In this document: piece by piece, positions 24,063 to 45,426 of the stretch | Layout of the letters: each line of letters begins with the position of its first letter | How positions within the stretch are numbered: the stretch's first letter is position 1 | NCBI GenBank assembly: GCA_945861715.1 | Contig: CAMAVK010000001.1 | Coordinates: 124,001 to 188,000, forward strand | From: Candidatus Woesearchaeota archaeon | GTDB taxonomy: Archaea; Nanobdellota; Nanobdellia; Woesearchaeales; GW2011-AR9 | Direction of reading: 5' to 3' | Length of the DNA stretch: 64,000 bases | Program-made: the position numbers and the translations under genes | Notes under the pieces: model-generated | Databases searched by the model: none | Seen by the model: the letters and a program-made list of their open reading frames with translations, nothing else | What the model was told of the DNA's origin: nothing

Positions 24063-26756
24063 ATGAGAAGTAACACAAGATGTATAGATCTAAGTACAAA
24101 CAAGGGTCAAGTAACTATCTTCATTATCGTAGGCATCATCGTCGCAGCTATTTTCTTCTTCGTTATCTCAACTACTACTGAAATCCAAAATGAAAAATTA
24201 CAATCTGAAAAAGAAAAAGTAGTAACCAAAGTCTTTCGCAAAGAAGCACTTCGAATTGCAGTTGACGATTGCTTAAAAGATGAAATGTCCCACGCATTAA
24301 TCGTACTTGGAAAACAAGGCGGAAAATTCTGGGCAGGTGAGCCCGGCGGAATCGAAGCATTTAATGACGGAATCAACGGCATCACCGTCGCATCCGCCGA
24401 GGGTGAATCCAAAGTCATGTATGGGATAACCAAAGGAACAGAAAAGTATCCATGTATTTCCAACCCAGCAGACCCCGCGGACCCCGCCGCATGTATCAAC
24501 TCCTACAAATTTCCCTCTCAAGCTTCTGACGTAGGCTACGGCGCAAGACCACTCTTAACCAAAGGGTACATAGAATCTCAACTCCAAGCCTACATGGTAG
24601 CAAAAGGCGGAACCTGTGTTGAACGAGTACTCAAAGAAAAGGTCGGCGCAGTCGACATCATCAATTCCGTTCCTAAAATTGAAGTATCACTCACTGACGA
24701 AGGCATCAACGTCAAAGCAAATTATGAAATGACATTAAGTATAGCGGGCGTTGAACAATTCGAACTCACTCAGTTTGATTTTACCTATCCAACTGCATTC
24801 AATAGATTCCTACGTGCCGCAGTCACCAACCCACTCAAGTGGGATTGGAAGTATGTTGATTTCAAATTTGATCAAGCAACACTTAACAAAGACAATATCA
24901 ATTTCCCCTTTGCGTCCCCCATTGACATCGTTGGAGCAGATTGTGTACAAGAAAATCCAATCATACCTCACAACCCGCTCTTCAATTGTCGAAAACCAAC
25001 CTTCCACGACGATTGGGACCAACTCCAAATCACAATGGTGAAACGAGAAATTCCCGACTCACACGGTGACGACCTCTTCCTATACACCATGCCAATAGAA
25101 ATGATTGCTCCTGGTGCAGAAGAAGCAGTAGACCAATACGAGTTTGTCATCGCAAGACAGAATCGCCCCCCCGCTTTAGATTACATATCACGAAATGCGT
25201 GCCCCGGAGAAAATGGATATGATTATTTAGTAATTCCTGGAAGTACTGACGTCGGAACAGATGGAACTCCATTGGGTGAAGTAAAGATAAGTTTTAATGC
25301 AAGAGACCCCGACGAGGATTCAGTGAGTGAAGAAGAAATAAAGTATCAATTCAGATCAAACCCCGATTCACCTTGGATAGGAGTTATCGAAAATCAATTT
25401 GATCTATCTCCTCTTTTACCTAACAATCCCCCTTTACGGGTAGTAGGAGATTTTACGTATTTTGATGTATCTTCTAAGGACAAACACGAAGCACGTGACG
25501 AGCAAGAAATAAAAATTTTCATTGACCAAGGGTTAAGTTCTTCATTAAAGGGTTCCCTGATGGCTGACACTTCAACAGTTGTAACATCCAGTGGAAATAA
25601 CGGTCCTCTCATTATTTCTCGAGAAGATCCTATTAAAATTACGTTGGAGTTGCCAGAACAGTCTGAAAGTAGAACAATTAAAAATTTAAAAGTAATATAC
25701 ACTAGTAAAACAATCCCCTTACATACTGAAGAGTTATTTAAGATTCAAGATTTAGAAACAAGTTTCGCATCTCCTCTTAGTGTTGGAATACCGGCTTCAA
25801 CGAGTGAGGAAAGCGGTTCAATGATTGAAGATTATCTTGTAGAGAGTAACATTATTGATATTAGTGGTAGCAAGTTAGCCTCTTTAGATATTGGAGACGG
25901 CACAATTGATGTTCAATATACTTCCTCATACTGTAATGGGGCATCGGATCAAATCGCAACCGTCTCAATTGATGTTAATGTAGTTGAATGTCTCGCTCAT
26001 GATAATCCAGATTATCCTTTCTCCTACCCATTCAATAACATTAAAGAAGAAACGTCTGAAGCCGGTAGTTCTCAATATTCCTTGAATCCTCCAGATGAAT
26101 CAAATCCTTTTACTGCTACTCACAGTTGTTGTATCACTCCAACTCCAGCAAACGCCGATACCAAAATTGGCCAAATTGCCGGACCAGAACAAGAGTGTGG
26201 TCAAAATGTTCCTGATTGTTATGGAAAAATACAAGGTCTTACAAAAGTTAATGATGATCCTAACTCCTTTGGAGGTTATGTATTAGAAAAACAATCAATT
26301 ATGTGTACGGGTAACCGCGGTAATTATTGCGATGGTTCAAGAAAATATGAGCTTGTAAGAAACGCCAAAGGACTAATGTTATGTGGAAAAAATAGTCAAA
26401 ATTGTATACGTAGTATCCCTACCGCATGCCAAAATAATCCTGCATACGGATATGTTGATACAAATAACGATAACAAATTGGATAGTTGGTGTAACGGAAA
26501 AATGGGTTGTGAGAAGCCATGTTCGGGGCCGGTTGTATACACAGGTGATGGCGCCGCTCTTAATATGATAGAAGTTAACAAGAAAGCTCAGAGAGATCCA
26601 TATTTCAAAGACAGTGATGCATTAAAATACTTCTGCGGCTGTGCAAATCACAACGAAAAATCATGCGATTCCAACTTCGACGGAACTTTTGGTGGAACCT
26701 GTAACGCAGGTGGCAATTGTATTGGTGATGATGAAGGAGATCCTGCTGCACCATGA
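24063..26756 (+). CDS. Large prepilin-like surface protein (897 residues)
   Basis: The N-terminus has the layout of an archaeal class III (prepilin) signal: a short leader ending in K14-G15, then Q16-VTIFIIVGIIVAAIFFF, a hydrophobic helix. In such proteins prepilin peptidase cuts before the helix, which packs into a filament core. The rest is a large extracellular part: beta-rich in the middle (with an acidic stretch NARDPDEDSVSEEEIKYQF) and Cys-rich near the C-terminus (ending CNAGGNCIGDDEGDPAAP). At ~900 residues it is far larger than a usual pilin and could be a tip or adhesin subunit. Its TGA overlaps the next ATG (ATGA at 26753). Confidence 0.75.
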   Translation: MRSNTRCIDLSTNKGQVTIFIIVGIIVAAIFFFVISTTTEIQNEKLQSEKEKVVTKVFRKEALRIAVDDCLKDEMSHALIVLGKQGGKFWAGEPGGIEAFNDGINGITVASAEGESKVMYGITKGTEKYPCISNPADPADPAACINSYKFPSQASDVGYGARPLLTKGYIESQLQAYMVAKGGTCVERVLKEKVGAVDIINSVPKIEVSLTDEGINVKANYEMTLSIAGVEQFELTQFDFTYPTAFNRFLRAAVTNPLKWDWKYVDFKFDQATLNKDNINFPFASPIDIVGADCVQENPIIPHNPLFNCRKPTFHDDWDQLQITMVKREIPDSHGDDLFLYTMPIEMIAPGAEEAVDQYEFVIARQNRPPALDYISRNACPGENGYDYLVIPGSTDVGTDGTPLGEVKISFNARDPDEDSVSEEEIKYQFRSNPDSPWIGVIENQFDLSPLLPNNPPLRVVGDFTYFDVSSKDKHEARDEQEIKIFIDQGLSSSLKGSLMADTSTVVTSSGNNGPLIISREDPIKITLELPEQSESRTIKNLKVIYTSKTIPLHTEELFKIQDLETSFASPLSVGIPASTSEESGSMIEDYLVESNIIDISGSKLASLDIGDGTIDVQYTSSYCNGASDQIATVSIDVNVVECLAHDNPDYPFSYPFNNIKEETSEAGSSQYSLNPPDESNPFTATHSCCITPTPANADTKIGQIAGPEQECGQNVPDCYGKIQGLTKVNDDPNSFGGYVLEKQSIMCTGNRGNYCDGSRKYELVRNAKGLMLCGKNSQNCIRSIPTACQNNPAYGYVDTNNDNKLDSWCNGKMGCEKPCSGPVVYTGDGAALNMIEVNKKAQRDPYFKDSDALKYFCGCANHNEKSCDSNFDGTFGGTCNAGGNCIGDDEGDPAAP

Positions 26757-27853
26757 CAGCCTCCCCCCTCAAATTCACCCTCGTACTCCTCCTCCCCCTC
26801 CTCATAATCCCATTAGCCCAAGCATTAGCCCAAGCAACCACATCATCAACAGGTTGTTTTCTCTACGAGGACTCCCCCTATTATTGTAAGGACATCTCCG
26901 AGTCCCAAGCAAAAGAAGAATGTAATTTGCAAGGGTGTAACCTACAAACCGTCTACAAACAACAGTTCTGCGCAACTTTACCTAAAGAAATCTCCTGCGC
27001 AAAAGTACTCTGTAAAAGCACATGTACGACTATCCCCGCGCAAGACTGTACTGCAGGAGCAGTTCCAACCGGAGAAGAAAGTCTCTGGTGCCAACCTGGG
27101 TGCTGCAAATACCAATCTCTTGAAGATACCATCTGTATTGGAACAGTCAATCGGAACAGCTGCCTTCAAACCGCTAAAAGTGGTCAAGCAACAACATACG
27201 AATACCTTCCCACTTCAACCTCATGCACTCTTGAATGCAATCGCGGTTTAACAAATAGCATCAAAGGAACAATTAACAGCTCAAAAACATCAATACAAAC
27301 CAAAACCAACCCACCCTCTGACTCTCAACCACCAAGTACCGATTCACCCATGACCACTATCTTCCTCAGCATTCTCATTTTCATCATTCTTGCAACAGCA
27401 TTAGTCATCTTCAAAATTATGCAAGCAAAAAAATCAACATCAACAAAAACAAAACAAAAATCCTACGCGGAGAATGATCCTGGAGAAAAAATTCAACAAA
27501 CACAACCAGCAACACATCACCCAATCAACCCAACACCTCAAATAAACGAAGTAGAGCAATCCCATCATCCATCTAAAAAAGCGCATGAGCTCAATCGTCT
27601 CCACGCCTTTGAAAATTTTAAACCAAATCATCATGAAACAAACAAATCTGCATTTAATAAACTAAATAAAATCAACGAATCAAAACGGACATCAATAGAA
27701 AGATTAGCCGACCTCAATAAAGATAATCCAAACTCCAAAAACACAACCAAGAGTGCATTCAACAAAGAAAAAAATACTTCCACACAAACCAAAGAACCAA
27801 AAAAGAGTTCCCTAGATGACCTACGTAAAATCGCCAGCAAAAAAAGAGAATAA
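26753..27853 (+). CDS. Cys-rich single-pass membrane protein with basic cytoplasmic tail
   Basis: Signal peptide (about residues 1-27), a Cys-rich ectodomain (GCFLYEDSPYYC, GCCKYQSLEDTIC) similar to the start of the 2,037-residue protein encoded next, a Thr/Pro/Ser-rich stalk, one membrane helix near residues 200-222, and a ~140-residue polar tail. The tail repeats a short amphipathic motif (AFNKLNKINES, SIERLADLNKD, SLDDLRKIASK) also found in the next protein's tail. The ATG overlaps the preceding stop (ATGA), so translation is coupled. I recognise no known family. Topology suggests a receptor-like link between the surface layer and a cytoplasmic partner. Confidence 0.75.
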   Translation: MTASPLKFTLVLLLPLLIIPLAQALAQATTSSTGCFLYEDSPYYCKDISESQAKEECNLQGCNLQTVYKQQFCATLPKEISCAKVLCKSTCTTIPAQDCTAGAVPTGEESLWCQPGCCKYQSLEDTICIGTVNRNSCLQTAKSGQATTYEYLPTSTSCTLECNRGLTNSIKGTINSSKTSIQTKTNPPSDSQPPSTDSPMTTIFLSILIFIILATALVIFKIMQAKKSTSTKTKQKSYAENDPGEKIQQTQPATHHPINPTPQINEVEQSHHPSKKAHELNRLHAFENFKPNHHETNKSAFNKLNKINESKRTSIERLADLNKDNPNSKNTTKSAFNKEKNTSTQTKEPKKSSLDDLRKIASKKRE

Positions 27854-27921
27854 TCATAAATCAACGGATAAACTAGAATTCTTCCAAATTCCCTCTCAAA
27901 TCCCTCCTCTAAAGCTCGATA

Positions 27922-27955: not shown

Positions 27956-30900
27956 ATGCAACGTAAAATGCGTGTGATAGGTGTACTTGTAGTTCTATCT
28001 CTATTATTTATCATAAACCAAGCCGCAGCATCCTGTCTTCTCTATGATCAAGACGAATCCTTATACTGCGTAGACCCAGCAACCCGTGGTGGAAACTGTG
28101 GCCCAGATGGGTGCGACCAATTCACTACCCCCCAAAATTGTGATCAAGTACCTGACGGTAAATGCAATGTCATTCAATGTGACGTAGATTGCCAAGATCA
28201 CACTCAGGGATTCTGTGAAAAACTCGGCGGCAGTGCAGTAACCGACGAAGCTGAACAATGTGGCCCAGCTTGTTGTCAAATCGAACGTGCAAGCAGTTGT
28301 TCAATTGTCCAATCAAAATTCGAGTGTGGCCAAAAAGCCATCAGCTTTGGTCTCCAAACAAATAATATTTTCTTCGACACATCAATTGCTACAGAAGAGG
28401 CCTGTCACCAGAAATGTAATGCAGGATCCGTTGATCCCGGGGTTCGTCAAGAAGCCGGAGAGGCAACCTTAATTGTAACCATCCAAGGGGACAGTAGCAA
28501 CGGGATCACAGTCTTCGCTCGAGGACCAAACGTCAAATCCGCTCTTACGGTTAGTGGGGTAGCAACACTTACTGAACTCGCTCCCGGCTCATATCAAATT
28601 AGCGCAAGTAAAATCGGATATCGTTCTGAAACAGAAACAGTTCGAGTAACGCAAGACGGTCCAAACACAGTAACAATCACACTCTCTCCGATCGAACAAC
28701 ATGCAATCACTGGAACAATCACATATGAAAGTATCGGTGGTGATTCACCCGTTGCAGCAGGTGCAAAAGTCTATTTAAACGGATCATTCAAAGGTGTAAC
28801 AAACGGCGAAGGAAAATACACTATACAATCAGACGCACTCATCCCAGGTGATTACTCAATTAAATCCAGTATCACTGTTGATGGCACAACCTATTCTCAT
28901 GAAACAATCTTCACAATTATAGAAAACCAAAATCCTGACCCACAAGATCTAATATTAACTCCGGAAGTACCTGAGTGTGGCCCAGACAGTCTGCAAAAAA
29001 TGGTCGATACATTTACTGCGCACCATGTCCTCGGAGAAAAGAAAGTTCGTTTAACATGGATAAAACCGTGTAAAGAAGTCACACGATATAAAATAACCAA
29101 AGATCCACTTGGTCCAAAAACCAGTGTCGCAGCAGAACACTATGAAGATGCAGCTGTTGGCACATTTATCGATGAAGATGTTCTATGGGGTACAAAATAT
29201 ACCTACACTATCAGGGCTATTTACAGTAACGGAGTTAGTGAAGTCGAGTCTGAAGCAAAACCTGCTGAAATAACCCTCGGAAACGAAAAATGCGAAGGTA
29301 AATACCATGCAGACACCAATTGGGAAAGCTTCTGTATCGTAGGAGATCAAGCAAGTTCCAAATTCACCTTCACCTGTGATAATAAAAACACACTCATTCC
29401 AAACGCGTGCCAAGCTGATTCCGAACGAGTAAACGCAGAAACAGGACAAACTGCCAGATTCTTTTGTGCACCTTCCAGTGCCAGATCCGCAACATGTAAA
29501 GATGCTGGTCCATGTGCTCTTCCTCGAAATAATCCATTCTCATTATACTATAATCAGAATACCTGTCTTGGCATAAACGGACAAGCACGAAGAGAAGAAA
29601 TACCTAATTTCTGTTACTATGACTACAGTCCAAGTATTGTAGACAGATGTAACACATGTGAAACTGTGCAAAGTTGTTTCGCCTACAAAGGCAAAGACGC
29701 CTGTGAACTCAACACCTGTTTAACCGATGAATGTCAATGGGTGAACGCCGCAGCTAACCAAGACGAGCGAGATAGAGAATTAATTGACTACTCATCATTA
29801 TTTGATGGGGATATTCCCACCACCACCTCGCAAGAAACCGGGGTTGGATATTGTACTCCAAAAGACTACAAAAAAGAAGATCACTGTGCTGACTGTTCAC
29901 AAGGGGCACCACTCTTTGGCGATTATTATTGTACCGCGCAAGTCTGCGCATCCTTAGGAAGATGTCTATCAAATCCACCTGTTGACGGACCAGCACTTAC
30001 ATCATGCTCCGCATGCGGCGAAAAATCAAACCTTGACATCAACTGTTATAGCTACACCTCGCGCTTAGAATGTACCGGCTCACCAGAATCCAACTCCGTT
30101 GGAATAATGAAAAACGATCAAGAGCAACTCACACTAAGTGAGGACCAATGTGGCTGGAACAGATGCAAATGGACCAGCAACAAAGACGCAGGAAATTTCT
30201 GTGTCAAAGACGGCGACGCAAATGACCAAGGAGACTGCGAACATTTTGAAGCAGGAGATCACGAAGCCTGTGTAGCGGATACCGACGCACCAACAAGTGT
30301 AGGCCCAGACGGTCTAACTATTATTTCCACCATAAACCCAAATATCACGCTTCAAAGTATTGATCAAGAAGCAACACTCGATCACATCAGTGTATGTACC
30401 CAAAGTGCAGCCGCTGCTCTTGCAACACCATGTACGGAGTTCATTCCAATTGCATTTAGTACACGTCTACGCGACGAAACAATTCAAGTTCCTATCCTCA
30501 CCAAAGACGAAACAACTGGTTTACTAGGAGATGAAAAAATTGCAGGTGAAAATTATAACCTCATCTATTTTGCAACTGACAAATTCTCAAACCAAGAACA
30601 ACCACACTCTATATTATTATATGTGGACAACCAAGAGCCACTCTTCGATATTGAAAAAGAGGTCACCACGGTTGCCGATACTTCCTCTATCACTCTCACT
30701 CTTATTCCGCAAGTTGACAATGGTAAAAATAAATGCGGAGTTGATCTCCTCTCCATCATTCCGAGTGGAGAAAAACTACATCAAGATATTGCCGAAGACA
30801 TTGAGCCTAAAACAACAACCTTCGAAAACCTCAAAGGAATAAGTTACTTAGCAAATATAACCTGCGTCGACGAATTTGGAAACAGTGGGAACAAAGAAAA

Positions 30901-33900
30901 AGCAATTGTCACAAATCCTGATCAAACAATTACTATCGTAAGCCCAGAGCTAGACACGACTCTTTCCATCCCCCAACTTACCTTCGAAATAAGCACCACC
31001 GTTGGTGGTTTCTGTAAATTATATTATGATAACACCTATGCTTCCGACTTCGTAACCGATGAAGAAGGAAAACGTCACGTCTTAGAGAATCAAGTTGTAC
31101 CTGGCATCTTTGAAAACGCAAGTGTCCAAATACCCTACTACTCAGTCATCTGTCAAGAATTCCTCGCACAAACAGAACACGCTGCCGCCTTCAGCTTCAC
31201 AATCGATACGCTAGGCCCATCTACATTAATCCATTTAACTGAAGGAGCACGAGAGCTCGAAAAAGGAAGATCAAATTGGGAAGAACATTTCATTCGTGGT
31301 GCAACCGTTGACTTTGAATGCAGATCCGACGGCTTCCCGTGTGCATCAACTCAATTCTGTGTCGGCCAAGATTGTAAATTCGCTCCATTCACCGCTCCAT
31401 TCGTCGTAGATAAAACAAACCGCATTTGTTACTTCTCAAACGACACCGAGCAACATGCCGAAGGTGTCAAGTGTGGAACAATAAACATTGATGGTTTCGG
31501 CATAACCTTAGAACATCCCGAACCATATACATTCCAAGATCAAATATGGGGTATTAGCGATTCAAACACCTTCGAGTGGAAATTCTACACCAAAGTTCCG
31601 ACCACCGAATGTAAATATGACTTTGTACCAAATTCAAACTACGACGCAATCCCTCGAGCAAGAACTCTCTACCCAACTCCTGAAAAACGCTACATCGTAG
31701 GCGAGTTCCCAACCGACGCTGGAGTAAGTCCATACGGTGAAGACGGTGGAACAAAAGAACTCTACGTAAAATGTATCAACAGCGAAGAAGAAATAAGTCC
31801 TGAACAAAAATTCAACTTAGAGTTTGACCCAAGCGCACCAACTATTCTCAGTGCAACTGCAAACCCTACTCTACTCCTTGAAGGAACTACTGTGCAACTC
31901 ACGGTCACAACCGATGACAAAACAACATGTAAATTCAATGACGAAGCAAGTGGGGAGTACGATACCATGCCTCACGAGTTCCCTGGCACAACTGAACATA
32001 TCCTCAACACAACACACATCATATCTTATAACGCGAACACCTTCATCGGCTTAACACACAACTTCGAGATTCAAGTCCAATGTAAAAACGGCGCAGGACT
32101 TCTCTCAGAAACAACCATTATTCCATTCCAAGTAGACTACAGCGCAATTGGTGCAATCGAATCTGTCTCACCTGATGGCGGCATTTTCACTGTAACCGAG
32201 CTCCCACTTGAAGTACAAACATCAAAATCCGCCGTGTGTGATTACCAAGAAAACGAAACATATATCGGACTCGCAGGTGCATTCTCGCGATCTCACGCCG
32301 GATCACTAAGCAACCTTCCCGAAGGCGACCTCAGATTTCCAATTCGCTGTCAAATGGGAGATCATACAGCTGAAGCTCTCTCTGCGTTCACAATTGACCG
32401 AACTCCACCCCAAGTACGTGACATCAACGACGGAAATATCACCTGTGGAAGGACACCCATATCTATTCTTGCTTCAACCACCGACGCCCAAATCGTCTCT
32501 TATTATTACGAAGTCTACGATCTCGGTTTACAAGGCTTACCAACTCAAACCAGACGGTCTGATCTAAATGCCCGTTCAAGTGGATCCCAAACTCCATCCC
32601 CTAATTCACCCACACCAACCCCTGATCAAGCAACTCCTGCACCCGTACTCACAGGCGGAACACTAATTCTAAACAGTACTGCAAATCCTGTTATGCCTCT
32701 ACTTATTCCAACTGATATGTTCAATTTAACAGATAATCAATCACGAAAACTCTATGTCAAACTCAAAGCAACCGACGCAGCCGGTCTCCAAGGTCCATTC
32801 AACACCTCCGATGGCGTACTTGTTGTAGGAGAAAACTTCAGTGTATGTAAAGAAGACACAAGTCCTCCATCAATTCGACTTTTCATTGAAGACAATGAAA
32901 GTTGTTCACGCGTTCTTGCTTCCATGACCTGCCAAGATACTACTGGTTGTTTCAATCTAACCTATGGTCAAACAGACGCTGAAAAAAGTTGCATTGCAAA
33001 TCAATCATACTCCGGCCAAAAATTATCATATTCCAAAAAAGGCTTCCTTTGTTATAATGTAGAAGACAATGTAGGTAACATTGGAAAAGGCGTATTCTCC
33101 GTACCATTCCTTGACACTGATGGTGACGGGGTCATGAATCGCTGTGACAATTGTAGTACAACTGGTGCCGGTGCAATAGCAGGAGCCACCGGATGCGCTC
33201 ATAACGATCCACTCCCAGTTGATTTAATCAAAGACACCGATGGAGATCGCCTCCTTGACGCCTTCGAGAAAAAATACAGTTCCTGTGGTATGGATTACCT
33301 CAAAGTTGACACCGACAAAAACAACATCAAAGATTCAGATGAAGACCCAGACAAAGATGGACGAACAAATTTAGAAGAAATGCTCTCGGAATCTGATCCA
33401 TGTACGCTTGATGAGCCAACAAAACCATGGGTACCTGGTGGCGATACAACAAACAACGAAACGCCAAACAAGAAAACCAACACTTCCAAAAAAGAGATCA
33501 CCCCAATAGATGAATCTAGTGGTTCAAGTATCCCAATAATAACCTTGATCAGTGGACTCGTGTTACTCCTTGGCGGCCTTAGCTATTTAATATACAAATA
33601 CAACAACCTAGGATCCAAAAAATCATCATCAAATGGTTCAACCTCTTCAAGCGCGAATGACAACTCAAACCCATTAAGCAGTGCTGTTGATTCCGTAACC
33701 AGTACCGTCAAAGACGCATTCGGTGGATTTGATAAATGGAAATCATCCAAAGCCAAAGACACCAGCAGAAAAAACGTCTTCGACGCGTTTCACAGTAAAT
33801 CCGCCGAGATTCCACACGTAGGCCCACTCATATCAAACAAATCAAATACGCCAGCAGCACTCCAAGAAGTAGCAAAGAAATATGTCGAACATAAAGACGA

Positions 33901-36083: not shown

Positions 36084-36146
36084 ACAAATTACCAATAATC
36101 AAACATAACAACCACCCACAAAAATAACCACTTACCCCAACATCAA

Positions 36147-36725: not shown

Positions 36726-37333
36726 CCACCTTCTTTGATAAACGAAAAGGAAACCTTCGAGGCCAAATGGAAATCATGGGCCTCGTAGTAATAGTTATCC
36801 TCATCAGCCTTGGCATGCTCTTCATGGTAAAGTTCGCAATAGATGACGATCCCGCAAAAAAAATATTCACCCGAAAAGGTTTAGCATATAGTACCGTAAG
36901 TGCCGTCATGAAAAACACAATAGAAGACTCAACCTGTTTCGCTCCAGGGATCACAACAAGACCAATAGCCATAGGATCTGAACTCTTCGATGATTGCTCT
37001 CTTTACATTGCAAATAAACCAGATGACGCAGCCGAATCCGGTGCAGGATTCTCACTGTATCAATGTCAAGGAGAACACAGTTGCCGATTCCTACGGGACC
37101 ATATCACTCTCAACCTCCAAAACACCCTTGGGACATGGAATAAAAAATACACCTTTGAGTCCAGCCTGTACAGCCCAAACAACCCCAACCAACAAAAACT
37201 AACATTATTCACCATAAACGGCGTAAAAGGTGGATGCACGGCAAAGGCAACAAACAAAGACAGCTCCGGAATCTACCCCCTAAGTAATCTCCAAGGTGGT
37301 GAAGTCCAAAACATATTATATATCTGCGAGTAA
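36722..37333 (+). CDS. Prepilin-like protein (203 residues)
   Basis: The leader contains two possible processing points, K9-G10 and R13-G14, the second followed by Q15-MEIMGLVVIVILISLGMLF. The exported part has six or more cysteines (DSTCFAPG, DDCSLY, YQCQGEHSC, GGCTAK, final YICE), suggesting a disulfide-stabilised small domain. It is coupled to the gene before it by an ATGA overlap. The two similar-sized proteins may be a pair of subunits. Confidence 0.72.
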   Translation: MTTFFDKRKGNLRGQMEIMGLVVIVILISLGMLFMVKFAIDDDPAKKIFTRKGLAYSTVSAVMKNTIEDSTCFAPGITTRPIAIGSELFDDCSLYIANKPDDAAESGAGFSLYQCQGEHSCRFLRDHITLNLQNTLGTWNKKYTFESSLYSPNNPNQQKLTLFTINGVKGGCTAKATNKDSSGIYPLSNLQGGEVQNILYICE

Positions 37334-37469: not shown

Positions 37470-37817
37470 ATGTTATCAAGAAAAGGTCAAGGGCTATCCT
37501 TAAACGTCATTATTATCGCAGCCCTCGCATTAATTGTATTAGTTGTTCTCGTTGCAATCTTCACAGGTCAAATAGGTGGTTTTAAGACGGGAGTCGACAA
37601 AAGTGGCGACGTTGAATTAACACAAATGAGAATCTCCTACGGAGACTGTCATCCAACAACCGCAAGAGAATCTGAATTCTCAACACAAATTGCACGAGCA
37701 CCAACCAGCGACGAAAAAGATCGAGAGCGTCAAGTATTTGAAGACGAAATTTCCCGTTGCGATGAAGTCTCAAGCGAAAAAAGCCTCTGCGAATCCAGTG
37801 GTTGCAAGTGGCAATAA
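37470..37817 (+). CDS. Small prepilin-like protein (115 residues)
   Basis: A textbook class III start: MLSRKG, then Q7-GLSLNVIIIAALALIVLVVLVAIF. The mature part is only ~85 residues, charged, and ends in a short cysteine cluster (SRCDEVSSEKSLCESSGCKW). With its own strong promoter and SD, short length and canonical signal, it is the best candidate for the main structural (major) pilin of the locus. That ranking is inferred. Confidence 0.75.
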   Translation: MLSRKGQGLSLNVIIIAALALIVLVVLVAIFTGQIGGFKTGVDKSGDVELTQMRISYGDCHPTTARESEFSTQIARAPTSDEKDRERQVFEDEISRCDEVSSEKSLCESSGCKWQ

Positions 37818-37864
37818 ATTATTTTCTCTTTATTTTTAAAATATAAATAAGTTCAACGCACAAA

Positions 37865-38233
37865 ATGGCATTCCACCTTCCTAAACTATCCCAAAAGGGA
37901 GAAGCAATGTGGTGGATAATCATTGGCGCCGTTCTTGCATTAATTGTTCTCATCGTTATGGTTGTCATGTTCACAGATAAAGGCAACGGCATAAAACAAG
38001 GTTTAGATTCATGTACTGGCATCTGCACTGGCGGTGGAACAAATGAAAAAAATTGTCCAGTTGGGACCCAATCCAGTGGAGCCTTCACCTGTCAAACTGG
38101 TGGATCATGTTGCATCGGCTTTGCCAAAGAATGTAATACTGGGGCCGATGGTCCAAAGTGTGATGAAAAAACGGAACATTGTGGCATTGTAGGAACTAGT
38201 GGTAAATCATATTGTCTTGATAAGCCAAATTAA
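37865..38233 (+). CDS. Small Cys-rich prepilin-like protein (122 residues)
   Basis: The leader ends in K11-G12, followed by E13-AMWWIIIGAVLALIVLIVMVVMF. The mature domain is very Cys-rich (about 11 cysteines in 75 residues, e.g. CTGICTGG, CCIGFAKEC, KCDEKTEHC), pointing to a disulfide knot. The KG-x-x-MWWII signature is shared with the proteins at 38398 and 41855, a subfamily of this locus. A TATA-like AAAATATAAATAAG (37836-37849) precedes it; T-runs after both flanking genes may be terminators. Confidence 0.72.
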   Translation: MAFHLPKLSQKGEAMWWIIIGAVLALIVLIVMVVMFTDKGNGIKQGLDSCTGICTGGGTNEKNCPVGTQSSGAFTCQTGGSCCIGFAKECNTGADGPKCDEKTEHCGIVGTSGKSYCLDKPN

Positions 38234-38237
38234 TAGA

Positions 38238-38245
38238 TTTTTTTT
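38238..38245 (+). terminator. Poly-T archaeal terminator
   Basis: A T8 run directly follows the stop of the 122-residue gene, as expected for archaeal intrinsic termination. Confidence 0.4.
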
Positions 38246-38288
38246 ATTATCAAAATCTCTCACAAACATATCTCCAAAGGAACTCCCA

Positions 38289-38420
38289 ATGAATAAAAAA
38301 GGTATAGATTGGCAATCCCCTGAAACCCTTATTGTAATCATCCTTATCGTTCTATTCGGAATTCTCATGGTCTCAATATTATACACAAAAATAAAAGGTG
38401 GAATACTTGGCCTCGCGTAA
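38289..38420 (+). CDS. Very small prepilin-like protein (43 residues)
   Basis: The ATG at 38289 has AAAGGA about 9 nt upstream. The product, MNKKG then IDWQSPETLIVIILIVLFGILMV, is little more than a class III leader and a membrane helix, with a short basic tail (YTKIKGGILGLA). A longer frame from 38199 overlaps the preceding gene and is not needed. It overlaps the next gene by 23 nt in another frame. Tiny helix-only proteins like this could be assembly adaptors. Confidence 0.65.
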   Translation: MNKKGIDWQSPETLIVIILIVLFGILMVSILYTKIKGGILGLA

Positions 38421-38592
38421 CAACATCACTCAAAAGAAATCACCTACTACCTTAAACCAAAAAGGGATGGAGATGTGGCAAATCATATTCATCATCCTCG
38501 CAATCATTCTCTTATTTTTCATGCTTATCTGGTCCGGTGCACTTGGAACAAAAATGGAAACCGCCCTTAATGGATTTGGGAGTATGTTTTAA
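38398..38592 (+). CDS. Small prepilin-like protein (about 64 residues)
   Basis: There is no ATG at the right place: the frame must start at GTG 38398 or TTG 38407, inside the end of the previous gene. The product has the leader ending LNQKG, then MEMWQIIFIILAIILLFFMLIW and a short end (TALNGFGSMF). The KG-x-E-MW signature matches the proteins at 37865 and 41855. The stop shares one base with the next ATG (TAATG). The conserved signal argues that this is a real gene despite the weak start codon. Confidence 0.65.
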   Translation: MEYLASRNNITQKKSPTTLNQKGMEMWQIIFIILAIILLFFMLIWSGALGTKMETALNGFGSMF

Positions 38593-40607
38593 TGGCCGCC
38601 GATAAACCCATTTGGAATTACGTCCTCCCTCTCATCGCTTTTTTTGTACTTGGTTCTATGTGGTATTTAGGTGATGGTAGTCTATTCGAAGGAGCAAAAC
38701 AAGCATTCGAGTTTGCATATGAAAATTATGTACCAGATATCACTGTCGGTGAACGATCACTTAAATCAGGCAAAACCACCCTGGAAGGCTCAACTTTAGA
38801 ATCCGCCGATTCACTCAAAGCTACTCTCACCGCTCTCTCAGATCCTAAAACAGGAAAGAATTGCTTTGCCAGATACGCCCCATTCACAACCGACATGGGA
38901 GATAATGCAGGAACAGCGATGTTCCAGTTTGATTACGATGACACACATGACCTAACCCACGTCATCATCTGGAAACGAAAAGACGTTGTTGCAAGCAAAT
39001 TTGATGTTCCTAAAATGAAACCATGTGTCATTGCTGGCCGAGAAGGCAACATCGAAATCGCCAAGAATTTCCGCCAAGCAATAGAACGAGGGGACATAAA
39101 TAAAGCAACCATCCCCTATACCTATACCGTTGACACACTTCATATCCAATACTCTCAAAACTATCGAAATGGCAATCGTATCTTCATTGACCAGTTAGCT
39201 CGAGGTGCAGCACCTGACCCAGAAGTAGTCAACGATGAATCCAAAAACTTCGAAGAGGGCGGCCTCATCTTCAAAGGACCTGACAACGAATTATGCTTCT
39301 TCCCAACCAATTGGATAAAAGATGCTGACGAAGATGGTTTAAATAATGATTACGTCCAAGAATTAGGAAATAAATTCGATAACGGTGACCCTTCTGTACC
39401 ACAGTGTCATCTCGAAAAAGGATTTGATGCAATTACACTTACCTCCAATATGGAAAGTTCTTCAAATCGAAATACCCTCGAGTGTAAAAGTACAAAAACA
39501 AATCTTCCTCTCGATTCTAATTCCAAGCGAGTCCAACTAACAAATACACACCAATACTTTAAAGGACTATCAACCTCATGCAGTTTCTTACTACCCACTG
39601 AAAAACCAAACCAAGGCTGCCTTGCCCTTATTCAAAATCCACAGTATTCAACAACTCAGGGCTGTGCAAGCACGGTTGTTCAAGAAGGAGAAGTAATCCC
39701 ATCCACAAACGCAGAGTACGGTTTAAAACCATACCTCAACAATCCTTCCTTTGCATCGCCAAGTGCCTATTGCGCAATCAGTCAAGGAGAATGGTTCACA
39801 CAGAATGAAAATAGCTTACTCTGCGCAAATACAAATTGGAATGAATGCTCAAAAGAGTCCCTCAACAACGAAATAACAGTTGCAGTGAATCAAAAACCCG
39901 TCATATATCAATGTACCACTGATGGTGATCATTATTCCTGGACAAAAAAATCAGGAGACCTAAACTTCGCTCAATACCGAGGAATAGAAATTGCTGGACG
40001 GGCTTTAGGTGCATATCCCCTTGGATGTGACTCCGAGTTCAACATCATAAACTCCAAATGTGATCTCAATGGAATAATGGGAGTCACCTCACCTTCAAGC
40101 AAAACAGGAACCTTCATCTGTCCATCATATAAAGGAATTTGTAACGATGAAAGCGAATTCCCAAGTATGGACCAATTATCACCAGAAGGATGCCAGGTAT
40201 TCATCTCAGCAGATCTTTACTCCAACAATAATTGTGCAAGAGCCCTCATTCCTTTTGGAACAGTTCTAAGCAAAAACCACGAGACCTCATTATACAACTG
40301 TGGTGATCAGCCAAATTGCCCTTTTGGTCCAATTGAAGTGAACCTCCCAGAAGCCCAAGACAACAATCTAGCGGTCGGCTGTCTTCTCAACCACCAATGG
40401 ACTCTACCCGAGACAGAACAAGGTGACCTTCTCTGCAGCAAAGCCTTCAACGATCAAGATGGAGTCTGGAATGAATGCAACCAAAGAGTCGTCGGCCGCT
40501 GCCTCACAACCCAAACCCCCACCGGACCAAAGCAATTCTGCTGTAACCTTAATAAAGGGGAAAATACATTCCGCTTTATAGAAACGCCAAAAGTGAGTTC
40601 AGAGTAG
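38592..40607 (+). CDS. Large Cys-rich membrane-anchored protein (671 residues)
   Basis: An N-terminal membrane helix (about residues 8-28, VLPLIAFFVLGSMWYL) without a K-G leader sets it apart from its neighbours. The extracellular part has an acidic, possibly calcium-binding loop (DADEDGLNNDYVQE near 240) and many cysteines in the second half (CANTNWNEC, CPSYKGIC, CGDQPNCPFG, CCNLNKG). The TAATG overlap with the preceding small gene indicates coupling. No enzyme domain recognised; it may be an anchor or adhesin subunit of the locus. Confidence 0.7.
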   Translation: MAADKPIWNYVLPLIAFFVLGSMWYLGDGSLFEGAKQAFEFAYENYVPDITVGERSLKSGKTTLEGSTLESADSLKATLTALSDPKTGKNCFARYAPFTTDMGDNAGTAMFQFDYDDTHDLTHVIIWKRKDVVASKFDVPKMKPCVIAGREGNIEIAKNFRQAIERGDINKATIPYTYTVDTLHIQYSQNYRNGNRIFIDQLARGAAPDPEVVNDESKNFEEGGLIFKGPDNELCFFPTNWIKDADEDGLNNDYVQELGNKFDNGDPSVPQCHLEKGFDAITLTSNMESSSNRNTLECKSTKTNLPLDSNSKRVQLTNTHQYFKGLSTSCSFLLPTEKPNQGCLALIQNPQYSTTQGCASTVVQEGEVIPSTNAEYGLKPYLNNPSFASPSAYCAISQGEWFTQNENSLLCANTNWNECSKESLNNEITVAVNQKPVIYQCTTDGDHYSWTKKSGDLNFAQYRGIEIAGRALGAYPLGCDSEFNIINSKCDLNGIMGVTSPSSKTGTFICPSYKGICNDESEFPSMDQLSPEGCQVFISADLYSNNNCARALIPFGTVLSKNHETSLYNCGDQPNCPFGPIEVNLPEAQDNNLAVGCLLNHQWTLPETEQGDLLCSKAFNDQDGVWNECNQRVVGRCLTTQTPTGPKQFCCNLNKGENTFRFIETPKVSSE

Positions 40608-40704
40608 ATAATTATCAACATTTGCAATTTTCCTCGGCCTCGTTGCCAAGAATTGTAATTGCATCTAACAAGCTCTAAACCACCGCCCGCGTTCTGGTGA
40701 TATT

Positions 40705-41808
40705 ATGTCAAACCCCATCCTACCCCTAATCCTCAAAAGAAAAGCAACCACTTCTCTAGGAAAAAAGGCTGAAATGGGCGTATTAGTAGCTATCATAATT
40801 TCTATTGCATCCTTTTTCGTTCTAGCAGGAGTCATATCCAAATTTCTCATATCAGCTGATGACGTCACCGCAGAAAACGCCTGTCGTGACTCTATTGCCT
40901 TGCGTGCTGCAACCGCATTTCGAATTGGTGCTGAAGATTCCGCAATCCAATCCACGCAAATAAAAGCCATCCCAAAAGTGTGTAAAACAATTGACAAAAA
41001 AATAGAAGGAGACCGAGAAGAAATAAAAAAGCAAATGGCCACAAAAATAGCACGCTGTTGGTGGCAATTTGGCGATGGTAGATATGAAGAGATCTTAAAA
41101 AACAGTGACACCTCCATCATGCCATTAATTTATGGTACTGGAAGTCAAAAAAATCAATGTTTCGTCTGTTACGTTATGATCGTAGATCAAGACAAAATCG
41201 AACCCGATGACAAAGCAGATTGCAGACAATATGGCGATAACTGTCCAATAAGTTCCCAAGAATTTATCAGTTACCTGTACGACACTCCATACAAAACAAA
41301 GCAAGAGAAATGCACTGGCAACGATTGCATTCCTTGTGAGACCAACGACCAATGTTCAGACGGTGCTATCTGTCAAAACAGCAAATGTCAGCCTGTTCAA
41401 ACTCTATCATATCTTGAATATGTTCAATCCTATGGTGGACCAGGACAAATCGGATTCCTAACTGACAACATTGAAGCAGGAAACACATATGCCATAACAT
41501 TTTTACCTAAAAATAGGCCAGTTGGCGGCACTTGGTGGGGTGCTGCTGCAGCAGTTGGTGGCGTTATCGTTTCAGGTCTAGCCTGCACTGCAACCCTTCC
41601 AGTATGTTTAGTTGGCGCAGCTGTAGGAACAACCATTGCCGGGTTCGGCGGAGCTGCTGTAGGGATGGAAGCCTCAAAGTCAAAAAGTTTTGTTGATTAT
41701 GATAAGTTAGACCGTATCTTCAAAGAGCGCGAGTACTCATCAATTTATGTAAGCGACTTAACAACCGCGCAGCATTTCTGTGCTGATGGCGACATATTAG
41801 GAAACTAA
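40705..41808 (+). CDS. Prepilin-like protein with second hydrophobic region (367 residues)
   Basis: The leader ends in KK-A22, then E23-MGVLVAIIISIASFFVLAGVI. The mature domain has cysteines (NQCFVCYV, CTGNDCIPCETNDQC) and a Gly/Ala-rich hydrophobic stretch near residues 270-325 (AAAVGGVIVSGLACTATLPVCLVGAA) that could be a hairpin membrane insertion. GGTGAT five bases before the ATG is an exact match to the archaeal anti-SD, and the 97-bp gap before it suggests a separate promoter. Confidence 0.7.
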   Translation: MSNPILPLILKRKATTSLGKKAEMGVLVAIIISIASFFVLAGVISKFLISADDVTAENACRDSIALRAATAFRIGAEDSAIQSTQIKAIPKVCKTIDKKIEGDREEIKKQMATKIARCWWQFGDGRYEEILKNSDTSIMPLIYGTGSQKNQCFVCYVMIVDQDKIEPDDKADCRQYGDNCPISSQEFISYLYDTPYKTKQEKCTGNDCIPCETNDQCSDGAICQNSKCQPVQTLSYLEYVQSYGGPGQIGFLTDNIEAGNTYAITFLPKNRPVGGTWWGAAAAVGGVIVSGLACTATLPVCLVGAAVGTTIAGFGGAAVGMEASKSKSFVDYDKLDRIFKEREYSSIYVSDLTTAQHFCADGDILGN

Positions 41809-41854
41809 ACTCCATAAGACCAAATGAACCATAAAAACTAAAGGTGAACAAATA

Positions 41855-42151
41855 ATGAAAAAAATCATACCACAAAAAATCAACAAAAAAGGCACTGAAA
41901 TGTGGTGGATCATCGTCATGGGCATCATCGCACTCATAGCAGTAATTGTGATTGTCATTTTCTTCAACGACTCTGTTGGCAAATCAAAAGATATCGTCAA
42001 AGACAAGTTTGACGGTTTTGGCGACAGCGATTGTGATAAAGTTGCAGACTTCACTGACGTTTGCCCAAAAGATAAAAACATTCAAACAAAAGATCAACTT
42101 GGCACCGGTACTTGCGGCCCCGCTACACCGTGCCCCGCATCAACAACTTAA
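41855..42151 (+). CDS. Small prepilin-like protein with TSP3-like loop (98 residues)
   Basis: The leader ends in KK-G13, then T14-EMWWIIVMGIIALIAVIVIVIFF. The short mature part contains GDSDCDKVADFTDVCPKDKN, like a single thrombospondin type 3 calcium-binding repeat, and ends in a Cys/Pro-rich tail (CGPATPCPAS). AAAGGTGAACAAATA before the ATG supplies an SD. Same KG-x-E-MWW subfamily as 37865 and 38398. Confidence 0.7.
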   Translation: MKKIIPQKINKKGTEMWWIIVMGIIALIAVIVIVIFFNDSVGKSKDIVKDKFDGFGDSDCDKVADFTDVCPKDKNIQTKDQLGTGTCGPATPCPASTT

Positions 42152-42198
42152 CTTACCCCTAAAGATAATAAAAATAACAAATCCGAACAAAATAATTC

Positions 42199-42849
42199 AT
42201 GGCAAAAGGCTCATTCATTAGTTTAGAAGCAATACTTGGAATAATCTTCGCCCTAATTATCATTGTACCAATTGTACTTCTGGTCAGTAATTTCACAAGC
42301 ACCTCAGGTCAGGCAACAGATAATTTTCAAGAATTCACCGGAGCACTCGAGTCAATGTCTCACTCAGAAAACACGGACGATCGCAAGAGTCATCTCCTCA
42401 TCATGGACGACCTAACCATGATTACCTATTTCACAGATAGAATGATAAACGTCCAAGTAGACACCACCGCAACAACGCTCTCATCATACTCAATCTACAT
42501 CGAACGTCCTGCCGCCTGTACCAAAACCCCCTGTATCTGTTTAATCCAAGAAGCAGAAGTTGAAACCATACCCGCTCAAAGTAGTGTAAAAGTGAGCCCT
42601 CTAAAGAGTACCTGCAATGAACTCACCTACACTGTATCTTACAAAGCAGGCGATAACCAATGTGGTATAGGCGAAAGTACCAACGGGGCCTCATACACTT
42701 GCAGTGGGGGCTGGTTCATCGACCGAGGACTAATTAAAGACGAGCTATTAGTCTCAGCATATTTCTCAGTTCAACGAAGAACCCCCCTCATCCTCGGACC
42801 AATTGAAGATGGTGTCCAATTCGCGCAAACCAGAAAGGAGTTGAAATAA
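42199..42849 (+). CDS. Prepilin-like protein (216 residues)
   Basis: MAKG, then S5-FISLEAILGIIFALIIIVPIVLL; the Glu five or six residues after the presumed cut fits the pilin pattern. The mature domain has six cysteines in the middle (ACTKTPCICL, KSTCNEL, NQCGIGES, YTCSGG). A TATA-like AATAAAAATAAC about 27 nt upstream suggests its own promoter. Its TAA shares one base with the next ATG (TAATG). Confidence 0.7.
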   Translation: MAKGSFISLEAILGIIFALIIIVPIVLLVSNFTSTSGQATDNFQEFTGALESMSHSENTDDRKSHLLIMDDLTMITYFTDRMINVQVDTTATTLSSYSIYIERPAACTKTPCICLIQEAEVETIPAQSSVKVSPLKSTCNELTYTVSYKAGDNQCGIGESTNGASYTCSGGWFIDRGLIKDELLVSAYFSVQRRTPLILGPIEDGVQFAQTRKELK

Positions 42850-43292
42850 TGCATCAACCGTGTTCATTTCATCTCCCAAAACTAAACAACAAAGGCTCCC
42901 ATCTTCTCTTTGTCATCATGAATCTCATCTTCGTAGCCGTCGCAGTCTACCTTATATTCCTCTTCGCCATCCGATCTGGTTCATCAAAAGAAGTAGCTGT
43001 CAATAATCTCGCCTATGAATTCACCTCAATGATCAACGTGCTTGCAGGCGATGACAATAAAATAATCGTTGGCTACCCCCAAGACCTCTCAACCTACGGT
43101 CTCATCCTGACCCCTAATTCAATCATCATCTACAACCTCGATAAAGAAAATGGAGACTTCAAAAGTGAAAAACAATTCACCCTACCAACTACTATCACTG
43201 CAACGGGAGCAGTAGAAGCAGTTGCAAACGTCTGCCTTACCAAAAAAGACAATCTCATTCTACTAGGACAATGTCAGGAGGTAACCAAGTGA
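42849..43292 (+). CDS. Prepilin-like protein (147 residues)
   Basis: The leader ends in K15-G16, then S17-HLLFVIMNLIFVAVAVYLIFLF. The compact mature domain (about 105 residues, beta-rich: ILTPNSIIIYNLDKENGDF) has only two cysteines near its C-terminus. It begins in the stop of the previous gene (TAATG), and its TGA overlaps the GTG of the next (GTGA). Confidence 0.7.
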   Translation: MHQPCSFHLPKLNNKGSHLLFVIMNLIFVAVAVYLIFLFAIRSGSSKEVAVNNLAYEFTSMINVLAGDDNKIIVGYPQDLSTYGLILTPNSIIIYNLDKENGDFKSEKQFTLPTTITATGAVEAVANVCLTKKDNLILLGQCQEVTK

Positions 43293-43792
43293 ACTCCAAA
43301 GCACAAAGTGCCTTCACCCTCATGTACAAAGTTGTATTTGGGACTATTGCAATGATTGTTATAACCATGATTTTTATGGGACTCGTCTCATTAGTATACA
43401 GCTACAAAGGTAACGTTCTACAAGACCCTGAGCAAGTCACAGCAGACACCATTGCGTACCGATTTACTCATTCAAGCGATTGCTTCGCCTACATTAACAC
43501 AGCAGAACAAACTGTCACCCCATCTATTGACATAACCAAATTCAACACTGACCAACTCAACGTATGCTATCCGGTAACCGGCGAGAAAGACTACGAAAAA
43601 TACAACTTCAAATTAATTCTCAAATCATCAGGCCAAGAAATAAAATCCGCAAATTATTATGAAGCACCAGACTTCACCTTATACTACACCATCCCAGTTC
43701 ACGAAAATGATGCATGGACAAAAGACACCATCACCATCTACGTTCAGAAACCATTTAAGGATAAACCATTGAATGGGAGAGTGAACCCATGA
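43289..43792 (+). CDS. Prepilin-like protein (167 residues)
   Basis: I place the start at GTG 43289 because GGAGGT lies 7 nt upstream and the resulting leader, (M)NSKA then Q6-SAFTLMYKVVFGTIAMIVITMIF, is a canonical class III signal; the ATG at 43271 would put that SD inside the coding sequence. The mature part has two cysteines (SDCFAY, NVCYPV) and a beta-rich C-terminus. Coupled to both neighbours by GTGA (43289) and ATGA (43789) overlaps. Confidence 0.72.
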   Translation: MNSKAQSAFTLMYKVVFGTIAMIVITMIFMGLVSLVYSYKGNVLQDPEQVTADTIAYRFTHSSDCFAYINTAEQTVTPSIDITKFNTDQLNVCYPVTGEKDYEKYNFKLILKSSGQEIKSANYYEAPDFTLYYTIPVHENDAWTKDTITIYVQKPFKDKPLNGRVNP

Positions 43793-44199
43793 TCAATAAA
43801 CTCATTCTAAGCAACAGCCATAAACACCAAGGCGTTGCCCCAGGAAAGCATTATCGCTTATTACATCTAAACAACAAAGGTATTTTAGACGAGCCCCTCG
43901 ACCTCATCGTGTTAATCATTGGAGGCATTGTCATATTCTCTGTACTCTATCTTATTCTCATGGCAGGAAAAGAGGATGCAAAAGTAGCCTCAACTGACCT
44001 TGCCACCAAAACCAGCATGATGAGTACAAAATTAGCAGAATGGAAGATCAATCTCGAGGAAGGGAAAATAATCAAACCAAAAACAAGACTCGAAAGCGAC
44101 CTCAAAGTTATTGCCAGAACCGGATACGACCCAAACAATGACCCGCTCCAAAGTCAACCAAACTCACCAGAGGAAGCAAAACCAGGATTCAAGTCATAA
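43789..44199 (+). CDS. Prepilin-like protein (136 residues)
   Basis: A long 31-residue basic leader rich in His/Asn ends in NNK30-G31, then I32-LDEPLDLIVLIIGGIVIFSVLYLIL. The mature part is short and charged, without cysteines (ATKTSMMSTKLAEWKINLE), mostly alpha-helical. ATGA overlap with the gene before. A cysteine-free, helical partner among Cys-rich proteins suggests a different position in the assembly. Confidence 0.68.
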   Translation: MINKLILSNSHKHQGVAPGKHYRLLHLNNKGILDEPLDLIVLIIGGIVIFSVLYLILMAGKEDAKVASTDLATKTSMMSTKLAEWKINLEEGKIIKPKTRLESDLKVIARTGYDPNNDPLQSQPNSPEEAKPGFKS

Positions 44200-44244
44200 T
44201 TTGAAAAATAAGTAACTTCCCAAAATATAACAGTCAAATAAATC

Positions 44245-45426
44245 ATGAAACCATTAAACAAAAAAGGCGCCCTGTACCATTGGATATTAATAGCATTAAT
44301 TCCAGCCATAGCTATTTTCATCTATCTCTCAGTTGATCTCCCAACCTACGGTGCTAAAGGTACATGGGCAATCAGTGTCGAACGAGCTTCAATCCTCGCA
44401 CAAACAGATACCCTCTCCATTGAAAACCAAGCACGTCAAGTACTCAAAACCGTTTCACTTGACATCGAAGAACAAGCATTATTACAGGACTACGGGTGCG
44501 GAACATATCGTGGACGCTCAGTACTAAACAATCAACAAGGTCCATGTCAAATCACACCAAAACTCCAAACCGATTTCCAAGAAAAAGCAAATCGAGAAGT
44601 AACACGCGTAGTCGACATCCCATTCAACATCATATTCAGCAACGGAAAAATAATTGGCACGGCCACTCAACCAAAAACCATTGGTTCCTTTGACGCTATC
44701 CCCATGCGAGAAAGCGACGCAAGTAACGAACTCGTCTACAGCATCCGACCATTCAAATTAGAATATAATTACCTACCTTCATTTGAAATCACCACTCCTT
44801 TATTTGAAAAGATAAACAAATACCGCCAGGACGCACCAAAAATAGTCCAAACATGTCAAAATCAGGAATCCGTTTTAACCTGCGAGTTAGATACCTACAC
44901 CATATGTAACGTCGAAATAAAAAATAACAAAAGACTCGCTTTAATCTGCGAGAAAGGAACTCAGGATGGCATTTTCGCACTCGACCTTACTCCCACCGCC
45001 CCAATCCCCATAAGTGAATATACAGTTGAAGAATCAGATTCTACATTCACATTTAAAATTCCCACCGACACGTTAGTTGATGGGTATAACCTATATCTCA
45101 CTAATGCCGACCGCATCGCTCTCGAGTTCAACCAACCAAAAGACCCAACCGAAATCTTCAGCACCATCTCAGAAAACTTCAACGAATTCTATATCAAAAT
45201 ACCACTCACCTTAGAGCAAGCAAACCTTTGCCCCCAAAACAAAGAAAACAACAAGCCCTATCTTTGCGCAAACGAGTTATATTATATCATAAACAATGAA
45301 AAGATAATCCCCGGCGAAACATATTATATTGGTATCACCTCCACAAAAAATCAAAAAGAATCAACCTTAGATTTTGTAAAACCAATTCAACTCCAAACAC
45401 ATTCACCAATCCAAGTTCCTTCATAA
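44245..45426 (+). CDS. Prepilin-like protein (393 residues), last of the array
   Basis: MKPLNKKG, then A9-LYHWILIALIPAIAIFIYLS. The extracellular domain is beta-rich with cysteines at YGCGTYRG, GPCQIT, CQNQESVLTC, CNVEIKN, LICEKG and late NLCPQ/LCANE. It looks like several Ig- or FN3-like sandwiches (SEYTVEESDSTFTFKIPTD). It closes the plus-strand surface locus, 46 bp after the previous gene; the ParB-fold gene follows 9 bp later. Confidence 0.7.
   Translation: MKPLNKKGALYHWILIALIPAIAIFIYLSVDLPTYGAKGTWAISVERASILAQTDTLSIENQARQVLKTVSLDIEEQALLQDYGCGTYRGRSVLNNQQGPCQITPKLQTDFQEKANREVTRVVDIPFNIIFSNGKIIGTATQPKTIGSFDAIPMRESDASNELVYSIRPFKLEYNYLPSFEITTPLFEKINKYRQDAPKIVQTCQNQESVLTCELDTYTICNVEIKNNKRLALICEKGTQDGIFALDLTPTAPIPISEYTVEESDSTFTFKIPTDTLVDGYNLYLTNADRIALEFNQPKDPTEIFSTISENFNEFYIKIPLTLEQANLCPQNKENNKPYLCANELYYIINNEKIIPGETYYIGITSTKNQKESTLDFVKPIQLQTHSPIQVPS

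Follow-up and report, generated by a model that had tools for sequence, protein, structure and literature searches.

An operon of sixteen prepilin-like genes suggests a hetero-oligomeric, type IV filament-like surface machine in Woesearchaeota

Archaeal type IV pili are built from class III prepilins with a VirB11/GspE-family ATPase, a TadC platform protein and an A24 prepilin peptidase (Makarova, Koonin and Albers 2016, PMC4858521). Their accessory components include S-layer-like proteins and adhesins, a locus encodes several minor pilins (for the methanococcal-type system, most genomes have five or more), and nanoarchaeal assembly ATPases have been described for which the pilins were not found (PMC4858521). 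The present work concerns an array of prepilin-like genes at positions 24063 to 45426 of a 64,000-nucleotide stretch (hereafter the window; C1:124001-188000) from the genome of a Candidatus Woesearchaeota archaeon (1.30 Mb, 8 contigs, 98% complete); genes are named by their start position in the window, and coordinates elsewhere in the genome carry a contig or locus prefix. The array resembles archaeal type IV pili in its class III subunits, in the ATPase, TadC-like protein and A24 peptidase of the same genome, and in its S-layer or adhesin companions. It differs in that up to sixteen class III genes occur per operon with none in a curated pilin family, in that the motor is encoded outside the locus, and in possessing helix-only subunits of 38-41 amino acids (aa) as well as a giant companion that is anchored by its C-terminus and whose cytoplasmic tail is conserved. 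The array most plausibly encodes a surface machine of Woesearchaeota that is hetero-oligomeric and resembles type IV filaments (rough probability 0.68), a reading supported by the presence of all three machine parts and by the prediction of N-terminal helices of 54-56 residues with globular heads.

By what means most DPANN archaea attach to other cells, or interact with them, is an open question, and their surface genes are mostly unannotated. Dark-matter islands of secreted proteins in DPANN genomes have been read as encoding “diverse pilins” on the basis of signal peptides and nearby FlaI, TadC or surface proteins (Makarova, Wolf and Koonin 2019, PMC6393860); those islands, as described in the text of that paper, include motor genes, whereas the present operon does not. 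The diverse-pilin idea is thus not new, because the studies of 2016 and 2019 anticipated both diverse pilins in DPANN archaea and orphan nanoarchaeal ATPases. The text of the 2019 study, with which the comparison is made and whose Fig. 2A families may overlap with ours, mentions no conserved order, modules, cysteine parity or fold prediction. In the literature searched, with most subscription journals and preprints falling outside its scope, no paper was found that describes this operon, its modules, its breadth or its helix-only subunits. What is defined here is a fixed-order set of families, made up of a six-gene core and an eleven-prepilin second module, together with the motor, platform and peptidase genes, one of each, on which they would have to rely. 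Among these families may be the missing pilins of the nanoarchaeal assembly ATPases, for which earlier studies had found no assignment.

The minor-pilin tip complexes of the type II secretion system (GspH-I-J-K) and of type IV pili (FimU-PilV-W-X with PilY1) likewise combine several distinct helix-anchored subunits. The likeness drawn here is one of working: the large extra domain of 34842 would correspond to GspK and the large non-pilin, adhesin-like 27956 to PilY1. There is, in contrast, no sequence or Foldseek match to these complexes, the adhesin-like protein is here C-terminally anchored with a cytoplasmic tail, and the subunits are several times more numerous.

The operon and its class III signals

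The region from 24063 to 45426 holds 19 plus-strand genes arranged head to tail with intergenic gaps of -23 to 136 bases, and is a single operon. An earlier note, made from the letters of this DNA, had presented it as an array of sixteen prepilins: all sixteen genes were recovered at or next to the positions it gave and carry class III signals, but it had overlooked that three further genes (26753, 27956 and 38592) belong to the same operon, that the giant 27956 is among the most constant companions of the prepilins, and that the operon falls into two modules. The three are not class III; 26753 and 27956 each have a signal peptide and a C-terminal membrane helix, and 38592 has one N-terminal membrane helix. 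The genes are as follows (the arrow marks the predicted cut; TM, transmembrane helix; counts refer to 76 named loci).

24063..26756, plus: class III, 897 aa, KG↓QVTIFIIVGIIV, 26 mature Cys; opens the core module
26753..27853, plus: secreted, C-terminal TM, basic cytoplasmic tail like that of 27956; not class III
27956..34069, plus: giant protein, 2037 aa; not class III
34066..34833, plus: core class III, KKA↓QVIGQVFVYIL; 67 of 76 loci
34842..36083, plus: core class III, 413 aa, SKG↓QVELVFNWMYI; 73 of 76 loci
36147..36725, plus: core class III, 192 aa, RKA↓QHMTETIAVLF
36722..37333, plus: core class III, LRG↓QMEIMGLVVIVI; 66 of 76 loci
37470..37817, plus: second-module class III, 109 aa mature; small-helix paralogue group; candidate major subunit
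37865..38233, plus: second-module class III, QKG↓EAMWWIIIGAVLA, 10 Cys; small-helix paralogue group
38289..38420, plus: helix-only class III, 38 aa mature; family in 16 loci
38398..38592, plus: helix-only class III, 41 aa mature, QKG↓MEMWQII; family in 11 loci
38592..40607, plus: 671 aa, one N-terminal TM without class III motif, exported part Cys-rich
40705..41808, plus: class III, GKKA↓EMGVLVAIIIS, 16 Cys; may have a second TM close to the C-terminus
41855..42151, plus: class III, KKG↓TEMWWIIVMGII; small-helix paralogue group
42199..42849, plus: class III, AKG↓SFISLEAILGII
42849..43292, plus: class III, NKG↓SHLLFVIMNLIF
43289..43792, plus: class III, SKA↓QSAFTLMYK; GTG start overlaps the preceding stop
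43789..44199, plus: class III, NKG↓ILDEPLDLIVLI; position kept in relatives, sequence not
44245..45426, plus: class III, 393 aa, KKG↓ALYHWILIALI; closes the array

A protein was assigned to class III by a simple motif test, namely [KR][GA] followed, after at most 7 residues, by an 18-residue hydrophobic and nearly uncharged window. All sixteen array proteins pass; in each, a short basic leader runs up to K/R-G/A and is followed by a single hydrophobic helix. The background was estimated from sixteen 20-kb stretches elsewhere in the genome (320 kb, 299 open reading frames (ORFs) of at least 100 aa), where 9 of 299 ORFs pass. On inspection by eye, eight of the nine proved to be multi-pass proteins or other false hits, and the remaining one is real, this being a paralogue of 24063 (L166:10879-13293). 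Within the window but outside the array, the only passing ORFs are 18174, which has an ordinary signal peptide, and three multi-pass proteins. Since sixteen class III genes stand in the operon against one real case in 320 kb, their clustering is not due to chance.

Several starts and cuts were refined. The leader of 34066 is 49 aa long in the window and usually short in relatives, and for this and several other genes the true start probably lies further in; 43289 is a GTG start within the 43271 ORF, 38289 lies within the 38199 ORF, and the cut of 36722 is, to judge from relatives, better placed after LRG (LRG↓QMEI) than after KRKG. Around the cut, relatives mostly have Lys at -3 and Gly or Ala at -1, giving a motif K-K-[G/A]↓Q across families; because rows were aligned on [KR][GASN], positions -2 and -1 are fixed or favoured by construction, which does not apply to the preferences at -3 and +1. 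Gln occupies +1 in 90% of the 36147 family, 87% of the 36722 family and 57% of the 34842 family. This conservation, like the cysteine count that follows, is a check independent of the motif search, and on the two together the class III signals are judged to be real and the proteins to be exported.

An independent indication of topology was obtained from cysteine residues, which were counted after the predicted cut in a check that does not depend on the motif search. In array order the mature counts are 26, 6, 6, 2, 6, 4, 10, 0, 0, 16, 4, 6, 2, 2, 0 and 8, all sixteen being even. Among relatives in thirteen families, even counts number 418 and odd counts 20, with no cysteine in 31 (the rows are related by descent, so that 418:20 is not to be read as a probability); 15 of the 20 odd counts come from the 42199 family alone and 12 of 13 families agree on an even count, as compared with 97 even to 82 odd for other ORFs of the same loci. 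Paired cysteines are the expectation for oxidised, exported domains, and the parity therefore supports an exported topology; we infer that the exported domains are disulfide-bonded. In the 34842 family Cys93, Cys305, Cys348 and Cys409 are invariant. As a separate observation, a minus-strand locus at 57469-59852, 12 kb from the Cys-rich operon, encodes a CcdA-like membrane protein (58575-59282, identified by eye) with secreted or anchored neighbours, and is perhaps a part of disulfide formation.

The mature class III proteins range from 38 to 882 aa. The statement of the earlier note that their exported parts differ completely needs correction, since not all are unrelated: 37470, 37865, 38398 and 41855 share a common helix family. 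The mature products of 38289 and 38398 are barely longer than a membrane helix. The AlphaFold2 model of 36147 (pLDDT 88.9) has a helix at residues 9-62 (54 residues) followed by strands, with a last four-strand group at 126-189, a predicted arrangement that in its layout resembles a type IV pilin; that of 34842 (pLDDT 91.2) has a helix at 16-71 (56 residues) followed by a beta-rich and a helical part.

Conservation, modules and the giant companion

The gene set and order, for which the earlier note had proposed a search of related genomes, proved to be conserved. The 36147 family was found in 52 of 60 relatives and 38 of 41 good genomes, the 34842 family in 124 of the 187 genomes of the class, and in the loci of 20 relatives one can recognise either the operon or, at a minimum, its core. 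The families of 27956, 34066, 34842, 36147 and 36722 each occur in 66 to 73 of the 76 named loci, and among the 72 loci with at least three families the gene order is strict in 68, the four exceptions being duplications; almost all of these loci, like the relatives of the genes of the window, carry the name Candidatus Woesearchaeota, which places the archaeon in that DPANN group.

Two modules can be distinguished. The core module, 24063 - giant 27956 - 34066 - 34842 - 36147 - 36722, is present even in distant Woesearchaeota, and the second module, extending from 37470 to 44245 with eleven prepilins, is best kept at the family level. In three loci (L081, L084 and L088) unrelated reverse-strand genes break in exactly at the junction of the modules. 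In four others, from distant relatives (L133, L143, L146 from archaeon GW2011_AR20, and L151), an S-layer gene (PF05124) stands at that junction, directly downstream of the core, which suggests that the structure meets the S-layer. The gene of about 760 aa directly behind the core in distant relatives had been considered as an ATPase or a TadC protein and is neither, being this S-layer protein. At the 43789 position, many relatives have a class III gene of no assigned family. Downstream of the operon, an RPA-type OB-fold gene (46021-47001; PF01336, PF08646) is a conserved neighbour in many relatives.

The 24063 family occurs in 40 of 76 named loci, mostly upstream of the giant gene, many loci being cut short on that side. 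Its second member in this genome opens a small cassette on contig C3 (L166:10879-19046), in which the 804-aa paralogue is followed by secreted proteins of 1114 and 771 aa. Genes resembling KilA-N/BRO (by eye) lie immediately upstream of both family members, at 23614-23922 (minus) and L166:9912-10733 (plus), hinting at mobile-element traffic at both sites.

The giant 27956, whose family is found in 66 of 76 named loci, combines an N-terminal signal peptide, CarboxypepD_reg (PF13620, 6.2e-9), fn3-like and weak TSP3 domains, a C-terminal TM and a conserved cytoplasmic tail, and is a likely adhesin or scaffold. The CarboxypepD_reg domain is the sole meaningful match of the operon proteins to Pfam and NCBIfam. 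The tail of 27956 is kept in relatives (..KLESIAKK..EAKDIFAKLKKISKKRKK), and at their ends the tails of 26753 and 27956 carry similar basic motifs, LDDLRKIASKKRE in the former and MGQLRDISKNRKKKP in the latter. In relatives the motif consists of two copies of F.KL..I..K, a possible docking site for a cytoplasmic partner.

Assembly machinery elsewhere in the genome

The earlier note had reported a locus with no assembly machinery and supposed that the machinery is encoded elsewhere; the former is correct for the locus but not for the genome, in which an ATPase, a TadC-like protein and an A24 peptidase are all present. Of the three results that the note had named as refuting its reading, none was encountered: the signal motif is conserved in relatives, a prepilin peptidase is present, and gene set and order are kept. 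Its interpretation is thereby supported in part. A single GspE/FlaI-type ATPase is encoded at C2:97852-100197 (minus strand), with the archaeal type II secretion ATPase 2oap as best match in the PDB (3.6e-32), followed by CpaF and FlaI. It was found in 58 of 60 relatives, with about 65-75% identity across most of the family, and is the sole ATPase of this type in many family members. The single A24 prepilin peptidase (C3:120366-120698, minus strand) scores above the Pfam cut-off, has a GGGD motif in its translation, and was found in 54 of 60 relatives and 39 of 41 good genomes.

The platform protein is divergent. A search of the genome with PF00482 returned nothing at E<=1, and a 727-aa membrane protein encoded near the ATPase (L003:2066-4249, minus strand), searched alone, gave E=0.5. 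PF00482 does match 5 of 12 homologues of this protein (best 3.5e-4), and the gene adjoins or stands near the ATPase in about 10 of 20 relatives' loci; taken alone, the genome search would have suggested that there is no platform protein, a reading corrected by this context and these homologues. The protein is accordingly classed as a divergent TadC/FlaJ, an assignment that is weak in sequence and stronger in context. PDB profile searches with two core families and the platform protein gave nothing meaningful.

In the region around the ATPase (L003; C2:88500-108400), three membrane proteins of about 190 aa are encoded on the minus strand (15457-16080, 16166-16747 and 17087-17650) and two genes on the opposite strand (13478-14038 and 13920-14648), a set conserved in many relatives (L057-L076) and possibly comprising unrecognised motor parts. 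In four relatives (G002, G032, G035 and G043) the ATPase ORFs are about 1263-1333 aa long and their match is interrupted around residues 524-572, as though an intein or another insertion lay within the ATPase domain.

Proposed working and alternative explanations

In the favoured model, about sixteen prepilin-like subunits would be inserted with the leader inside, the single A24 peptidase would remove the leaders by cleaving at K/R-G/A↓, and the N-terminal helices would hold the subunits in the membrane. The ATPase and the TadC-like protein would pull these helices into a bundle, either a pseudopilus or a short heteropolymeric pilus with a complex tip, in which the heads would differ because each subunit has its own place. 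The C-terminally anchored 27956 would form the outward-reaching or adhesin part, its conserved tail docking on something inside the cell. Crossing of the S-layer and attachment to other cells or surfaces would be the most likely use, attachment being favoured because archaeal adhesive pili offer an analogy and so do Saccharibacteria of the CPR, ultra-small host-dependent cells whose thin type IV pilus helps them to bind the host (PMC12206443); the latter is a bacterial system and an analogy for role only. The locus points to an unstudied many-part surface machine, by which cells of this kind may make contact with other cells or keep hold of them. The known range of building blocks of type IV filaments would be widened by a set of sixteen different subunits of which two are scarcely more than a membrane helix. 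A more specific version, put forward tentatively and held to be less likely than its negation, is a contact device without a major pilin: about fifteen helix-anchored subunits, including 38-41-residue “micropilins”, would form a bundle of fixed composition through the S-layer, tied to giant single-pass adhesins that signal via the conserved tail, and would serve many of the Woesearchaeota and related archaea as a main organelle of host contact.

Several results weigh against a filament-like machine. There is no clear major pilin in the array; operon proteins gave no pilin match in Pfam or NCBIfam (43289 has a sub-threshold match to Pilin_N, E=0.47); and Foldseek comparison of the 36147 and 34842 models with the PDB gave no pilin and no significant match. 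Glu at +5 of the mature subunit, which is typical of bacterial pilins and not strict in archaea, is not general among the array families: in the 36147 family the window protein has Glu at +5 and 88% of relatives have it at +6, in 85% of the 36722 family it stands at +3, 57% of the 34066 family has Gln at +5, and most other families lack Glu at +5. Since the ATPase is near universal (181 of 187 genomes of the class), its co-occurrence with the core is uninformative, and other pilins may be what the motor serves. The 76 named loci, examined up to 10 kb to either side, contain no ATPase or TadC gene, and motor genes and operon were never neighbours in the loci examined; linkage between subunits and motor is nevertheless common but not defining, because unlinked pilin genes occur in known archaeal systems (PMC4858521). 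As regards an archaellum, the operon proteins gave no archaellin match in Pfam, FlaH not having been searched for.

The main competing explanation accepts the class III cleavage and supposes a static, non-extruded envelope complex, its proteins anchored by their helices as scaffold spokes under or through the S-layer and the ATPase serving other pilins. A similar arrangement, the bindosome, has been proposed for the sugar-binding proteins of Sulfolobus. One gene per subunit with no obvious major pilin and mature sizes of 38-882 aa, giant single-pass companions with cytoplasmic tails, the S-layer gene adjoining the core in distant relatives and the lack of linkage to the motor all fit such a complex; class III cleavage, however, usually serves the packing of helices into a filament, and ATPase and peptidase are retained in almost all genomes, which leaves it unlikely. 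A transport pseudopilus, working as a piston of the type II secretion or competence kind in protein secretion or DNA uptake, is more doubtful still. It would account for the many minor-pilin-like subunits with large heads, for an archaeal type II secretion ATPase as the closest solved structure and for the conserved RPA/OB-fold gene 46021, but the latter is of housekeeping type and may be a passive neighbour, and a ComEC-type channel was found in 0 of 40 relatives, a weak test for archaea as archaeal controls gave no match either; DNA uptake via ComEC is thus unsupported. Finally, the array could consist of unrelated exported proteins with ordinary signal anchors whose N-termini resemble prepilins by chance, as the class III calls derive from a motif test. 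This is very improbable in view of the sixteen such genes that the operon holds, as opposed to a single one in 320 kb, of the conservation across families of residues -3 and +1, which goes beyond hydrophobicity, and of an A24 peptidase kept in nearly all genomes.

Elsewhere in the window, a tandem pair of 381-aa lipoprotein-like genes with near-identical N-termini (MKYTPILTLSTILAACGSSSS...) occupies 15770-18057 on the minus strand.

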